Shown: in pieces, positions 6,044 to 53,045 of the stretch
Layout: every line of letters starts with the position of its first letter
How positions within the stretch are numbered: the stretch's first letter is position 1
Origin: Exiguobacterium artemiae 255-15
GTDB lineage: Bacteria; Bacillota; Bacilli; Exiguobacteriales; Exiguobacteriaceae
Length of the DNA stretch: 64,000 nucleotides
Direction of reading: 5' to 3'
NCBI RefSeq assembly: GCF_000019905.1
Contig: NC_010556.1
Location: 1,638,001 to 1,702,000 of the forward strand
Notes under the pieces: model-generated
Seen by the model: the letters and a program-made list of their open reading frames with translations, nothing else
What the model was told of the DNA's origin: nothing
Database searches by the model: none
Program-made: the position numbers and the translations under genes

Positions 6044-6207
6044 TTCTTCTTTTTACGATGTATTTCTTCTATAGAAGAAGATGATTGATGTTATAGATAT
6101 TCGAAAAATTTAAATTAATCCCTTTATCTTTTAAAGATCAGTTTGATAATTTTAGGGAGAACTTCTACTTTTTTTGTTTATTACTTCCTTTTTCTATTTA
6201 GTTATGG

Positions 6208-6327
6208 TACACTATAATCAATTATTGTTGTTCGGTGGAGATGCAAAGTTTACACTTTCGACTCGATGAAATTGATCACAGTAGTAATAATTTAGTGTGA
6301 CTTAGTCATACGCAGGAGGCAACACAC
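6208..6327 (+). promoter_or_regulatory. csp copy 1 promoter and long cold-shock leader
   Basis: An extended -10 (TGG TACACT, with an overlapping TATAAT at 6213) precedes a leader of about 110 nt. The leader carries the block ATTATTGTTGTTCGGTGGAG, shared by all four copies, and a hairpin (GTGTGAC TTA GTCATAC) ending 2 nt before GCAGGAGG. Long structured leaders are usual in csp mRNAs. Confidence 0.7.
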
Positions 6328-6528
6328 ATGGAACAAGGTAAAGTAAAATGGTTTAACGCAGAAAAAGGTTTTGGCTTCATCGAACGTGAAAGCGGCGACG
6401 ACGTTTTCGTTCACTTCTCAGCTATCCAAACAGACGGTTTCAAATCACTTGACGAAGGTCAAGAAGTTTCGTTTGAAGTTGAAGAAGGTCAACGCGGACC
6501 GCAAGCAACTAACGTTACTAAACTTTAA
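6328..6528 (+). CDS. csp: Cold-shock protein, copy 1 (type A: Lys5/Ser22)
   Basis: This 66-residue single cold-shock domain protein is an RNA and single-stranded DNA chaperone. RNP1 is KGFGFIE (about residues 13-19) and RNP2 is VFVHFS (about 26-31); WFN lies at 8-10. It is the first of four tandem copies, identical in protein to copy 3 and differing from copies 2 and 4 at residue 5 (Lys or Thr) and residue 22 (Ser or Asn). GGAGG precedes the ATG by 8 nt. It has its own promoter, leader and terminator. Confidence 0.97.
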
Positions 6529-6535
6529 TTTTCTT

Positions 6536-6568
6536 AGAGGATTCGCTGATGCGGATCCTCTTTTTTTT
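6536..6568 (+). terminator. Terminator of csp copy 1
   Basis: Eleven-nt arms AGAGGATTCGC and GCGGATCCTCT (one G-U pair) are followed by eight T. The IS605-type remnant begins right after this T run. Confidence 0.9.
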
Positions 6569-6570
6569 AT

Positions 6571-6746
6571 CAAAATTTGACGAGAATACTCCCACTTTTT
6601 AACATTCAGGCCGAAGTCCTCGTGCGAGTGGGAGTATTCTCGTCTTCGGGCAAAGCGTGTCTTGCGACACGTCAATTTTCGACCGCTCGGTTGGATAACT
6701 CAGGAATCTACTACCTCTTAATGAAGCGTATGTAGAGTTAATTCAA
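6571..6746 (+). mobile_element. 176-bp IS200/IS605-type non-autonomous element (copy A)
   Basis: The segment shares its left part (from CAAAATT, including CGAGAATACTC and a CGTGTC-TTGC-GACACG hairpin) and right part (GGATAACTCAGGAATC to TTCAA) with the 410-bp element at 50807. It starts with a perfect 17-bp inverted repeat at 6579-6595/6628-6644 and ends in TCAA, the cleavage motif known for IS608. Without it, the spacing of csp copies 1 and 2 falls from 579 to exactly 403 bp, the period of the other copies, so insertion added 176 bp and no target duplication, as IS200/IS605 transposition does. No transposase or TnpB is coded. Confidence 0.7.
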
Positions 6747-6906: not shown

Positions 6907-7107
6907 ATGGAACAAGGTACAGTAAAATGGTTTAACGCAGAAAAAGGTTTTGGCTTCATCGAACGTGAAAACGGCGACGACGTTTTCGTTCACTTCTCAG
7001 CTATTCAAACAGACGGTTTCAAATCACTTGACGAAGGTCAAGAAGTTTCGTTTGAAGTTGAAGAAGGTCAACGCGGACCACAAGCAACTAACGTTACTAA
7101 ACTTTAA
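6907..7107 (+). CDS. csp: Cold-shock protein, copy 2 (type B: Thr5/Asn22)
   Basis: A 66-residue cold-shock domain protein, identical to copy 4. It has the same RNP1 and RNP2 motifs as copy 1 and differs only by Thr5 and Asn22. It is preceded by its own leader with GGAGG and followed by its own terminator. The IS605-type remnant lies between copy 1 and this promoter and does not touch the -10 element, so expression should persist, though readthrough from copy 1 would now cross the insert. Confidence 0.97.
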
Positions 7108-7309: not shown

Positions 7310-7510
7310 ATGGAACAAGGTAAAGTGAAATGGTTTAACGCAGAAAAAGGTTTTGGCTTCATCGAACGTGAAAGCGGCGACGACGTTTTCGTTCACTTCT
7401 CAGCTATTCAAACAGACGGTTTCAAATCACTTGACGAAGGTCAAGAAGTTTCGTTTGAAGTTGAAGAAGGCCAACGCGGACCACAAGCAACTAACGTTAC
7501 TAAACTTTAA
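7310..7510 (+). CDS. csp: Cold-shock protein, copy 3 (type A: Lys5/Ser22)
   Basis: A 66-residue cold-shock domain protein with the same amino-acid sequence as copy 1. It lies 403 bp after copy 2 and 403 bp before copy 4, and its promoter, leader and downstream region are nearly identical to theirs. Together with copy 4 it repeats the A-B order of copies 1 and 2, which points to duplication of a two-gene block. Confidence 0.97.
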
Positions 7511-7712: not shown

Positions 7713-7913
7713 ATGGAACAAGGTACAGTAAAATGGTTTAACGCAGAAAAAGGTTTTGGCTTCATCGAACGTGAAAACGGCGACGACGTTTTCGTTCACT
7801 TCTCAGCTATTCAAACAGACGGTTTCAAATCACTTGACGAAGGTCAAGAAGTTTCGTTTGAAGTTGAAGAAGGCCAACGCGGACCACAAGCAACTAACGT
7901 TACTAAACTTTAA
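7713..7913 (+). CDS. csp: Cold-shock protein, copy 4 (type B: Thr5/Asn22)
   Basis: A 66-residue cold-shock domain protein identical to copy 2 and the last of the array. Its upstream region copies that of copy 3, but its terminator differs from those of copies 1 to 3, which marks the end of the duplicated block. Confidence 0.97.
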
Positions 7914-50736: not shown

Positions 50737-50804
50737 TAAAAAAGCTCAACCGTTTTTCACTTTCGTCACGAGGACGTCTGTAGAAAACAGGTTGAGCTTT
50801 TTTT
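50737..50804 (+). terminator. Terminator of the binding protein-permease operon
   Basis: AAAAAGCTCAACC and GGTTGAGCTTTTTT arms with a long loop. The IS605-type element begins right behind its T run. Confidence 0.75.
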
Positions 50805-50806
50805 AT

Positions 50807-51216
50807 CAAAATTAGGCGAGAATACTCTCACCTCTAAGTGTCTCGGACAAAGCCCAGCGTAGGTGGGAGATGAATCGCCTTCGGGCAAGGCGTGTCTTAC
50901 GACACGTCAATTGCCCGACGTTTTCGGTTTGAAAACACTTAAAACCAGGAAAAAAACAATACGTCGTGTTCTTTGAAAACTGAAGGTATAGGGTTGTGAC
51001 TGGAAGTTCGTCTGTCACGTAAAATCTTCAACGTTCACCTTGCAGATGACCGAAGTAGCGAAAACCAAGCAGAGTAAGCGTCCGCACAAAAGAAACTGAC
51101 AAGATTAAAATCCAACCGTCGGGACGACGGGGTTAGCCTGATAAATTTCAGACCAATAGGTCGGATAACTCAGGAATCCTTCACCTCTTAGCATAGCGTT
51201 GGTGGAGGTAGTTCAA
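50807..51216 (+). mobile_element. 410-bp IS200/IS605-type non-autonomous element (copy B)
   Basis: It shares both ends with the 176-bp copy at 6571: the left CAAAATT..CGAGAATACTC and hairpin CGTGTC-TTAC-GACACG (here inside an outer TCGGGCAA/TTGCCCGA stem, 50881-50918), and the right GGATAACTCAGGAATCC..TTCAA with a GGTGGAGG hairpin arm. Copy B alone has about 235 bp of interior (50919-51155) with no long open frame but several short stems such as CCGTCGG-GA-CGACGG at 51116. That layout fits a TnpB/IscB-type guide-RNA scaffold left after loss of the protein gene. Like copy A, it follows TTTTTTTAT in a terminator T run. Confidence 0.62.
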
Positions 51217-53045
51217 GCTTGTTGGTCGAGCAATGGTTCGACGGATAGTGCTTCCAATGGTTTATGGAACAAATAGCCTTGAAGCGTCTGGCACCCTAAC
51301 CCTGTCAAAAGTTCCGCTTCCACCATCGCTTCGATTCCTTCCGCGACAATCGTCATCTTCAACCGATCTCCTAATTGAATGATCATCTTGACGATGGCTC
51401 GTTTTTCTTCCGAGTCAATCGCCGCCCGGACAATCTCTTTCGGAATTTTCAACTGATCAAAAGGTAATTCGACGAGCGTCTGCATCGAAGAAAAGCCGGT
51501 TCCAAAATCGTCAAGCGCAATCCGGATCCCGTGGAGATGCAATTCATTTAATGTCTCGATTATTTGTGCCATTCCTTCGATAAAAATATGTTCTGTCATT
51601 TCGATTTCCAATAAGTAAGGCGGAAAACCGGTTGATCGTAAAATCTCCAATACCTTTTTGGTAAAGTCTTCTTGACGCAACTGCGAAGGCGAGACATTAA
51701 CGGCAATCGTGATTGGTTTTCGTCCTTGTTCCAACCATTGCTGACCTTGCAGGCAGGCTTTACGCATTACCCATCCTCCAAGTGTTTCGATGAATCGTGT
51801 CCGTTCTGCCAACGGAATGAATTCCAGCGGAGAAATCAACCCGTATTTCGGATGATTCCACCGGACTAGTGCTTCTGCACCCGTGATGCAGTGATTAGTT
51901 GCGCTGACTTGCGGTTGAAACAATACGAAAAAGTCCCGGTCAAGATCAGCATCATACAGATCACGTGTCAGTTGCATGGCTCGTTTGCGTTCATTTTGAG
52001 TCACCTGATCCGTGATCGCAAACGTATTTTTACGATTTGACTTTGCTGTAAATAAAGCAATCTCGGCATCATTGATGACATGATCAATCGATTCCCCGTT
52101 AACGAATGACACCCCGATGCTTGCCGTTACATTAATTTGCTTAAAATCGATTTGGACACGTTCAGAAATACTGGCTAAAATCTCATCGCATAACTGATCC
52201 GGTTGCGCGGACGTCGCATGTAATAAAAAGGCACTTCCACTCGCTTTAGCGACGATACAATCGGAAAAACGCGTCATCAACCGTTTTCCGATGATATGCA
52301 ACGTCCGGTCTCCCGTTCGGTAACCGAATGCATCATTGACTGTCTTGAAATCATCCAAATCAATCAGACAGATGATATCTCCCGCGACCGCTTTTTTTTC
52401 CGTTTCAATCACAAAAAAAGACCGGTTCGCCAGTTCCGTGACCGAATCAAAAAATGCTTGTTCCTTAAATCGAGCTAAGTAGTCGATGTTTCGTTCCAGC
52501 CGTGAAACATACTGTCTATGAATCAACAGACTGATCAGTGTAGCAATCAAAATCAGTCCGATCCGTGCGATATGATCCGTTGAACTGAAGTTTGACATGC
52601 CTGCCGGTGCTTTTAACCAGACGTACAGGAGTGATAAAACGCTGATTGCCGTCGCATACAGTAACATCGTCCGGTTAATGACGACCAGGGAGGCCAATAC
52701 AAATAACAACGATGCGGCCCACACAGTCTGTGCCCCATTGTTTATATACGGATAGTTGATGAACGGGATCAATAAGAAGACACTCGACATCATATGCGGT
52801 TTCCATCGGTCGCTAAGACTGCTTTTCCCAATCAGAAACTGTACACCACCCACAATAAAAATCAAAAAAGCACGCCACACTTCAGACCACTGCAATCCAG
52901 ACGAACTGATGTTGCTCGAGAAGATATATAAAATGGAACCACAGCTAGTCAGCACAAAAATAATCATTCCGAACAGCTGGTAATTGGCGTTTACTTCGCG
53001 ATGGTAGTGAAAATTCGTCGATGAAGGACGTTCATGTGCCTTCAT
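51213..53045 (-). CDS. Membrane GGDEF/EAL protein with degenerate GGDEF
   Basis: A 610-residue protein: five to six N-terminal helices (about 22-180), then a GGDEF-like domain with the active motif replaced by KASGSAF (about 277-283), so cyclase activity is unlikely. The EAL domain keeps EALVRW, the Asn of VNVSPSQL, the Glu of EIEMTE, DDFGTG, VAEGIE and LQGYLF, and so may hydrolyse c-di-GMP, although LKIPKE replaces the usual LKID. GGAAGGAG lies before the ATG. The stop codon is supplied by the end of the IS605-type element. Confidence 0.88.
   Translation of the reverse strand: MKAHERPSSTNFHYHREVNANYQLFGMIIFVLTSCGSILYIFSSNISSSGLQWSEVWRAFLIFIVGGVQFLIGKSSLSDRWKPHMMSSVFLLIPFINYPYINNGAQTVWAASLLFVLASLVVINRTMLLYATAISVLSLLYVWLKAPAGMSNFSSTDHIARIGLILIATLISLLIHRQYVSRLERNIDYLARFKEQAFFDSVTELANRSFFVIETEKKAVAGDIICLIDLDDFKTVNDAFGYRTGDRTLHIIGKRLMTRFSDCIVAKASGSAFLLHATSAQPDQLCDEILASISERVQIDFKQINVTASIGVSFVNGESIDHVINDAEIALFTAKSNRKNTFAITDQVTQNERKRAMQLTRDLYDADLDRDFFVLFQPQVSATNHCITGAEALVRWNHPKYGLISPLEFIPLAERTRFIETLGGWVMRKACLQGQQWLEQGRKPITIAVNVSPSQLRQEDFTKKVLEILRSTGFPPYLLEIEMTEHIFIEGMAQIIETLNELHLHGIRIALDDFGTGFSSMQTLVELPFDQLKIPKEIVRAAIDSEEKRAIVKMIIQLGDRLKMTIVAEGIEAMVEAELLTGLGCQTLQGYLFHKPLEALSVEPLLDQQA

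Follow-up and report, generated by a model that had tools for sequence, protein, structure and literature searches.

The csp array and its spacing

The window, i.e. the whole stretch of 64,000 nucleotides of Exiguobacterium artemiae 255-15 that was analysed, carries an array of four csp genes on the forward strand, with a 176-bp insert between the first and the second gene. The four genes are located as follows:

6328..6528, + strand: csp copy 1, 201 bp including the stop codon (from direct reading, unit spacing and the lengths of coding sequences and gaps)
6907..7107, + strand: csp copy 2 (from unit spacing and the lengths of coding sequences and gaps)
7310..7510, + strand: csp copy 3 (from unit spacing and the lengths of coding sequences and gaps)
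7713..7913, + strand: csp copy 4 (from unit spacing)

A match to the cspA thermoregulator of Rfam spans positions 6118-6565, over csp copy 1. The units start 579, 403 and 403 bp apart, as a preliminary description of this DNA had stated, and the intergenic gaps measure 378, 202 and 202 bp, the first of which becomes exactly 202 bp when positions 6571-6746 are removed. The 176-bp difference therefore stands. The same description held that removal restores the exact period of 403 bp, which is right for the length, but the alignment of gap 1-2 with gap 2-3 contains at least three small indels with a net length of zero. Since these cancel, and since the spacings in relatives are 401, 402, 403 and once 392 bp, the exact value is partly luck. 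The insertion itself is sound despite this coincidence.

The csp loci of 11 relatives were fetched, of which six hold arrays of 2 to 5 copies and five a single unit. The spacings in the six arrays are 403 bp (G013), 403 and 403 bp (G014), four times 402 bp (G004), three times 401 bp (G007), 401 bp (G015), and 392 and 403 bp (G012), and the 176-bp insert is absent from every csp gap of these arrays. In the G004 array (L080), with its five units at a constant spacing of 402 bp, the intergenic sequences are identical by eye, i.e. strongly homogenised. The first gaps of the six arrays correspond to spacings of 403, 403, 402, 401, 401 and 392 bp. An empty first gap of 403 bp had been predicted for related strains: all six arrays are empty, but only two have 403 bp, and if any other length is to count against the prediction then four of the six disagree with it, three by 1-2 bp, like ordinary indels, and the fourth by 11 bp. 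The empty csp1-csp2 site is thus seen in other species with diverged gaps only.

The claim that the element entered after the array had formed goes too far, as all that follows from the insert is that csp1 and csp2 were neighbours by the time it arrived. Identity is 99.0% between gaps 2-3 and 3-4 but 81.4% between either of them and gap 1-2 with the element removed, so that insertion need not post-date the whole array and csp3 and csp4 may be younger than the insert. We consider the chances evenly balanced that the element entered between two csp copies before the array grew, csp3 and csp4 arising later by amplification of csp2. Gaps 2-3 and 3-4 also resemble the gaps of other species (up to 93.6%) more than gap 1-2 of their own array, and the variable size of the six arrays in relatives points the same way, but gene conversion among csp copies 2-4 would give the same pattern.

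Anatomy of the insert

The features of the insert, and of a full-length relative located further downstream in the window, are:

6566..6570, + strand: TTTAT left flank, the insertion target, which lies outside the element and is the analogue of a TAM or CL site (from flank counts at 76 copies)
6571..6746, + strand: 176-bp protein-less element, PATE-like (ends common to other places in its own genome and to 16 of 19 genomes of the genus)
6579..6596, + strand: 5' arm of the left-end hairpin, without mismatch against 6627-6644
6627..6644, + strand: 3' arm of the left-end hairpin, converted by quasi-palindrome correction into the exact reverse complement of its partner arm
6674..6679, + strand: joint of an internal deletion, with AATT microhomology (from the alignment with ~410-bp copies; joint read by eye)
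6703..6746, + strand: right end, consisting of GGAATC, an imperfect hairpin and the TTCAA terminus (GTTCAA or ATTCAA in 78 of 80 copies)
50802..50806, + strand: TTTAT to the left of the full-length relative, immediately 3' of a stem resembling an intrinsic terminator (stem read by eye)
50807..51216, + strand: ~410-bp protein-less element, the full-length form of the family (25 copies of 398-413 bp; empty sites in G008, G013, G014 and G018)

The insert is placed directly 3' of the csp1 terminator and 5' of the csp2 promoter. It starts with CAAAAT after TTTAT, and its TTCAA terminus occupies positions 6742-6746. A search of its own genome with the 176 bp returned 15 matches including itself. Three ~410-bp elements match the left end (approximately positions 1-107 of the element), of which the first 33 bases also match a tnpB element; the right end (from approximately 102/107 to 176) is matched by ~410-bp and tnpB elements alike. 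Apart from the insert itself, the best left end in this genome is found at E 1e-28, far beyond chance. The copy at 50807, with which the insert had been said to share its ends, is 73% identical to it at the left end and 74% at the right end.

Alignment with full-length copies shows the insert to be the ~410-bp form lacking ~230 bp of its interior, by one internal deletion. Three further short copies, all in G007, carry deletions that each differ from that of the insert, which means that shrinking has happened repeatedly.

The arms of the left hairpin have 5-8 mismatches over 19 bases, with an internal loop, in 72 of 80 copies, and only five copies, including the insert, have 0-2 mismatches. 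The arms of the insert pair without mismatch over 18 bp, the 3' arm having the sequence of the 5' arm in reverse complement. The opposite correction, where the 5' arm is made to match the 3' arm, is found in four copies (L093, L124, L130 and L099). Template switching on quasi-palindromes is a known source of such changes, according to the parts of two papers that were consulted (PMC7202029, PMC8604942), and the exact 3' arm is what polymerase template switching on a quasi-palindrome would give. Two near-identical elements of Aneurinibacillus danicus (L223 and L232) differ likewise, one having a perfect left palindrome and the other the usual imperfect one, which makes them a clean example of such correction.

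With the 5' domain of its RNA gone (see below) and the asymmetric loop of the hairpin lost, we infer that the 176-bp copy is now immobile, and that correction of the palindrome inactivates an end. The several copies in which the asymmetric left hairpin has turned into a perfect palindrome point to one particular route by which IS605 ends may die. The insert is not the clean fossil that it had been called: it is a rearranged copy, which has lost its interior and had its left hairpin made perfect.

The element family in the genus

Matches to the 176-bp query were found in 16 of 19 genomes of the genus. For a census of copies, most right ends of 10 genus genomes were taken with their flanks and both ends were required, giving 80 copies at 76 distinct sites. 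Four sites duplicated between species were counted once within the 76, and L100 and L102, which are one region, were also counted once. A further 15 of 95 right ends had no recognisable left end, some of them being located at the end of a contig, and stand outside the counts, as do the matches in G003, G005, G006, G009, G011 and G016 and some further right ends.

Two size classes account for most copies: 49 of the 80 measure 1.29-1.38 kb (~1.35 kb), and 25 measure ~410 bp (398-413 bp, at 22 distinct sites in 8 genomes). The remaining six are of 176, 186, 197/198, 263, 330 and 495 bp. The five bases 5' of the left end are TTTAT at 54 of the 76 sites, TCTAT at 10, TTTAC at 7 and others at 5, and 78 of the 80 copies end in GTTCAA or ATTCAA; in reading these counts it should be noted that the boundary scripts nudged the left end by up to 2 bases to TAT, TAC, CAT or CAC and the right end by up to 8 bases to TTCAA. 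Exact repeats of at least 5 bp between the left and right flanks occur at none of the 76 sites, and of 4 bp at one.

Empty sites agree with this. The site of the 50807 copy is empty in four species (G008, G013, G014 and G018), with the joint after the terminator-like stem, where small indels leave the joint uncertain by ~2 bases. An independent 400-bp copy is found in G012 (Exiguobacterium sp. KRL4) just upstream of csp1 of its array (C34:383517-383922, L077). G008 reads straight through this site, and the joint has no base duplicated or lost; G008 has TTCAT where G012 has TTTAT, plus a few extra bases further upstream.

The census of copies by flank and terminus, which had been proposed as a check, supports a protein-less insertion of IS200/IS605 type, 3' of TTTAT and without target duplication, in each of these respects. 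Subterminal imperfect hairpins are present at both ends, the left one of the insert being perfect, and insertion takes place 3' of a fixed short target without duplication, as seen both at the 76 sites and at the empty sites. A Y1 TnpA and/or TnpB of its own, the remaining mark of an IS200/IS605 element, is lacking: there is no room for either in 176 or 410 bp, and the genes are found on sister elements only. With regard to PATEs, the family is non-coding, has IS605-like ends, makes no target duplication and has, by reading, no terminal inverted repeats. A classical MITE was rejected on the missing target duplication (76 sites) and because the left and right ends are, by reading, not inverted repeats of each other.

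Base -4 of the flank is T at 66 of the 76 sites and C at 10. Column 18 of the left end is A with T at 60 sites and G with C at 9, and column 83 is A with T at 63 and G with C at 10. In IS608-type elements the flank is recognised by bases of the left end, and the changes from T-A to C-G would fit recognition of that kind here. The C sites look like one sub-lineage, and the covariation may therefore reflect shared ancestry.

Additionally, G007 and G015 (L185, L186) carry a left end plus truncated RNA near a full copy. A longer element as the source of the interior was considered for G007, where a left end and partial RNA stop short and no family right end follows, and was rejected; we read this as a truncated copy. 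Outside the genus, a left-end-like sequence (81% over 84 bp) occurs in nine Bacillus phage records (phiNIT1, SPG24, BSP9 and others), and the family or a relative of it travels on phages. Partial matches to the 410-bp element are present in four plasmid records (Brevibacillus, Peribacillus, Bacillus and Priestia), none of them in an annotated feature.

Transposase genes

The 49 elements of ~1.35 kb have the same ends as the insert and the size of tnpB elements. One intact protein of this class was scanned and matched OrfB_IS605, the Cas12f1-like TNB and HTH_OrfB_IS605. The E. artemiae genome has three Y1 TnpA genes, all of them on other IS605 elements. In two of these elements (L044, L045) the left hairpin is very similar and is preceded by TTAAC. 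The TnpA-bearing elements appear to be unlike the family in their flank, TTAAC (read in L189 and L190), and in their right end, TTCAC (read for one of them, L045/L190). A left-end-like sequence (84-86% over ~80 bp) is found just upstream of TnpA at 791627-791710 in the own genome (G000), and at the same strength in G012, both upstream of TnpA (C34, 45304-45384) and, on C1, with a TnpA fragment.

Of the 8 genus genomes with 410-bp copies 6 have an intact TnpA, compared with 1 of the 11 that lack such copies (Fisher p=0.006). Because of the similar left ends beside TnpA and this co-occurrence across the genus, TnpA is likely to have mobilised the family in trans. G013 and G015 have 410-bp copies and no Y1 hit, so that TnpA has been lost there or is not the mover.

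The conserved RNA of the 410-bp form

Positions 50958-51216 of the full-length relative hold a covarying RNA of ~250 nt, which is widespread in Bacillota as part of a protein-less element with IS605 ends. Its two parts are:

50966..51088, + strand: 5' domain of the conserved RNA (model R1), present neither in the tnpB elements of the genus nor in the 176-bp copy
51112..51216, + strand: 3' part of the 410-bp element, 82-92% identical over ~104 bp to the 3' end and right end of tnpB elements, among the matches listed

The interior of the 410-bp form gave 30 matches in 8 of 19 genus genomes, two of them truncated and each with at least one family end adjoining. The 3' half shared with the tnpB elements comprises a CCG..CGG hairpin, which in the tnpB elements lies within the end of the coding frame, a GCCTGA/TCAGG helix and the terminal hairpin. 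The first two of these covary too.

RNAalifold on 17 sequences predicted 42 pairs, 21 of which show two-sided changes. In the covariation test 38 of the 42 pairs were counted, two weak two-pair helices being omitted. For these 38 pairs 97.0% of the cells are paired, and two-sided changes occur at 19 pairs in 55 cells. None of 500 shuffles scored as high on any of five measures. When the structure was slid by 1-3 columns, 39-44% of the cells were paired. The slid control is biased towards the structure, which had been obtained from this very alignment, but the bias is too small to explain such a difference.

A covariance model of the 5' domain was built from 15 sequences, some of which come from genomes later counted as matches. 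It matched 42 of 299 genomes of the class, in 25 of 118 genera (E<=1e-3), and 31 of the 42 are outside the family of the window. In the phylum, five genomes besides the own one were matched among 398 (E<=1e-6). BLAST beyond the genus also placed the RNA in other families of the class, where the copies that were read are stand-alone elements, most of them with hairpin ends. A degenerate 33-base pattern was found in hosts including Lederbergia, Priestia, Heyndrickxia, Peribacillus, Neobacillus, Domibacillus, Sporosarcina, Geobacillus, Marininema, Aneurinibacillus and one Bacillus subtilis strain; several of these loci are in the same genomes as covariance-model matches and are not independent. 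The right end, AGGAAT or AAGAAT followed by a hairpin and TCAA, is present at 31 of 35 pattern places (one with AGGAAG; L278 is spurious) and absent at 4. By eye, the 5' domain stays recognisable in more distant Bacillota while the 3' part diverges.

A tblastn search with five TnpA/TnpB proteins gave no hit in 37 loci carrying the RNA. In 10 further loci it found one tnpB, at L313 (G224, 3086600-3090800). This gene has the orientation of the RNA element and begins ~80 nt beyond its downstream side; it may be a neighbour by chance or part of an autonomous form. A TATAAT-like box (0-1 mismatch) is located upstream in 24 of 37 copies versus 41% in shuffles, a modest excess. In six loci outside the class (L306-L310 and L312) a TGGTATAAT-like extended -10 box was seen by eye just 5' of the 5' domain, which suggests that the RNA has its own promoter. 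A short reading frame that terminates in the tnpB tail, seen by eye in one 410-bp copy, was rejected because other copies stop earlier and it is thus not conserved. In sequence layout, the 3' end of the RNA would be formed by the transposon right end as in an ωRNA or reRNA, the helices running into the right-end hairpin and TTCAA.

Searches for known RNA families

At gathering score, Rfam gave only cspA and tRNA matches in the whole window. A search of 50780-51300 at E<=5 gave a single sub-threshold match (Ref70, E 0.23). In sixteen loci the families above gathering score were T-box, SAM, tRNA and skipping-rope only, none of them on the RNA of the element, and in three loci searched at E<=2 only two sub-threshold microRNA models appeared. 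HEARO (RF02033), an RNA which we take to be linked to IscB, was rejected as a candidate, both for the element and for its 5' domain as a homologue of an IscB-type RNA: the model does not exceed the gathering score and misses the 410-bp loci of all six genomes searched. It does have a strong match elsewhere in the own genome (G000:C1:1392346-1392551, E 1e-25). A literature search, with most subscription journals outside its coverage, returned no description of the conserved RNA or of these Exiguobacterium elements. We regard the RNA as undescribed on the strength of the Rfam copy and the literature searched, and could be wrong in this.

Interpretation

Positions 6571-6746 are very probably a decayed protein-less member of the IS200/IS605 type (PATE), derived from the ~410-bp form. 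In this reading a Y1 (HUH) TnpA supplied in trans would have cut out a ~410-bp member, or one already shortened, in single-stranded form, and the excised DNA would have entered the csp1-csp2 gap 3' of TTTAT. The RNA of the 410-bp form may be an omegaRNA-like guide RNA which takes its guide from the right flank and would use the TnpB of sister elements to cut empty donor sites, whereby the element is copied back. This guide-RNA step might with about equal probability be right or wrong. An element made of a guide RNA only and served by TnpA and TnpB in trans would be the simplest reading, since the 3' half is homologous to the tnpB right end, which is the guide-RNA region in ISDra2.

Alternatively, the RNA could be an independent structured RNA (regulatory, a ribozyme, or a decoy of TnpA or TnpB) which has captured IS605 ends, its 3' likeness reflecting the shared right end only. 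The probability of this falls somewhat short of an even chance. The restriction of the 5' domain to the 410-bp class within the genus argues for it, together with the wide spread found with this domain, the 37 loci in which tblastn found no tnpA or tnpB, and the divergence of the 3' part by eye in distant Bacillota which keep the 5' domain. However, the shared half reaches beyond the terminal hairpin, to the CCG..CGG and GCCTGA/TCAGG helices that also covary, and one genome (L313) has the start of tnpB shortly downstream of the RNA element.

It is very improbable that the 410-bp element is a degenerate IStron (a group I intron with IS605 ends) or a HEARO/IscB ωRNA element. Group A IStrons do have TTGAT, ATTAT or TTTAT on the 5' side of their insertion site, and IStrons without an ORF are known, according to the part of the source consulted (PMC4227781), but neither a group I intron nor HEARO matched the 410-bp copy at E<=5, HEARO finds its copy elsewhere in the own genome and no 410-bp locus, and the right end is TTCAA in 78 of 80 copies instead of the TCAG given in that source. 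Finally, a chance repeat, an assembly artefact or an extra regulatory region of csp, for which the position between the csp1 terminator and the csp2 promoter might speak, can practically be dismissed, as the same ends recur at 75 other distinct sites and match in 16 of 19 genus genomes, and none of the csp gaps read in relatives has the insert.

Taken as a decayed mobile element, the insert is a well-resolved fossil of single-strand transposition and in itself ordinary; it leads, however, to a protein-less family bearing a conserved RNA with strong covariation. In a wider and tentative view, which we would sooner expect to fail than to hold, RNA-only elements with IS605 ends would form a large and old class in Bacillota, whose undescribed ~250-nt RNA, with its own 5' domain fused to an omegaRNA-like 3' half, recruits TnpB while the element recruits TnpA in trans, both from other elements, the csp insert being the corpse of one. 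If true, such an element would be selfish and consist of nothing but guide RNA, and the csp insert would be a copy that deletion and palindrome correction have inactivated. And if the RNA is a stand-alone guide RNA, then guide RNAs can be selfish cargo and TnpB a shared resource.

Comparison with known systems

HEARO resembles the RNA of the 410-bp form in being a structured RNA of a mobile element, and differs in that its model matches elsewhere in the genome and misses the 410-bp loci. Group A IStrons, as far as the consulted part of the source describes them (PMC4227781), have IS605 ends, a TTTAT-like target, a structured RNA and ORF-less copies in common with the family, but contain a group I intron and end in TCAG at the 3' end, neither of which was detected here.

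The reRNA or ωRNA of ISDra2 TnpB (PMC8612924, seen in part) is a right-end RNA with its guide from the flank and a 5' TAM equal to the insertion target, as the sequence layout suggests for the RNA of the 410-bp form. The ISDra2 RNA overlaps the 3' end of tnpB, whereas the RNA described here is stand-alone and has an extra 5' domain. The IS200/IS605 elements of IS1341 type (tnpB only) in the same genus have the same left and right hairpins, the TTTAT, TCTAT or TTTAC flank, the TTCAA end and a 3' ωRNA-like region. They differ by their size of ~1.35 kb, by encoding TnpB and by having no 5' RNA domain.

A PATE-like sequence of Halanaerobium hydrogeniformans (PMC7290912) is also bacterial, with a left-end hairpin, a tnpB end and the right end only. 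It is a single copy made of the ends and the last 58 nt of tnpB, and the part of that paper available to us describes no additional RNA domain. The PATEs of Haloquadratum walsbyi (PMC3119063, seen in part) come in homogeneous (multi-copy) and heterogeneous kinds. They agree with the family in having no terminal inverted repeats, palindromes near the termini that are related to IS605, no target duplication, a length too short for a transposase and frequent deletions of the core. In contrast to what the consulted part of that paper describes, the multi-copy form in Exiguobacterium contains a covarying RNA of ~250 nt that is conserved across Bacillota. The kind of element to which the insert belongs is thus already known, with a PATE-like copy from a bacterium in print (PMC7290912), and, relative to the portions of these sources that were seen, what is new is the conserved RNA in the full-length form.
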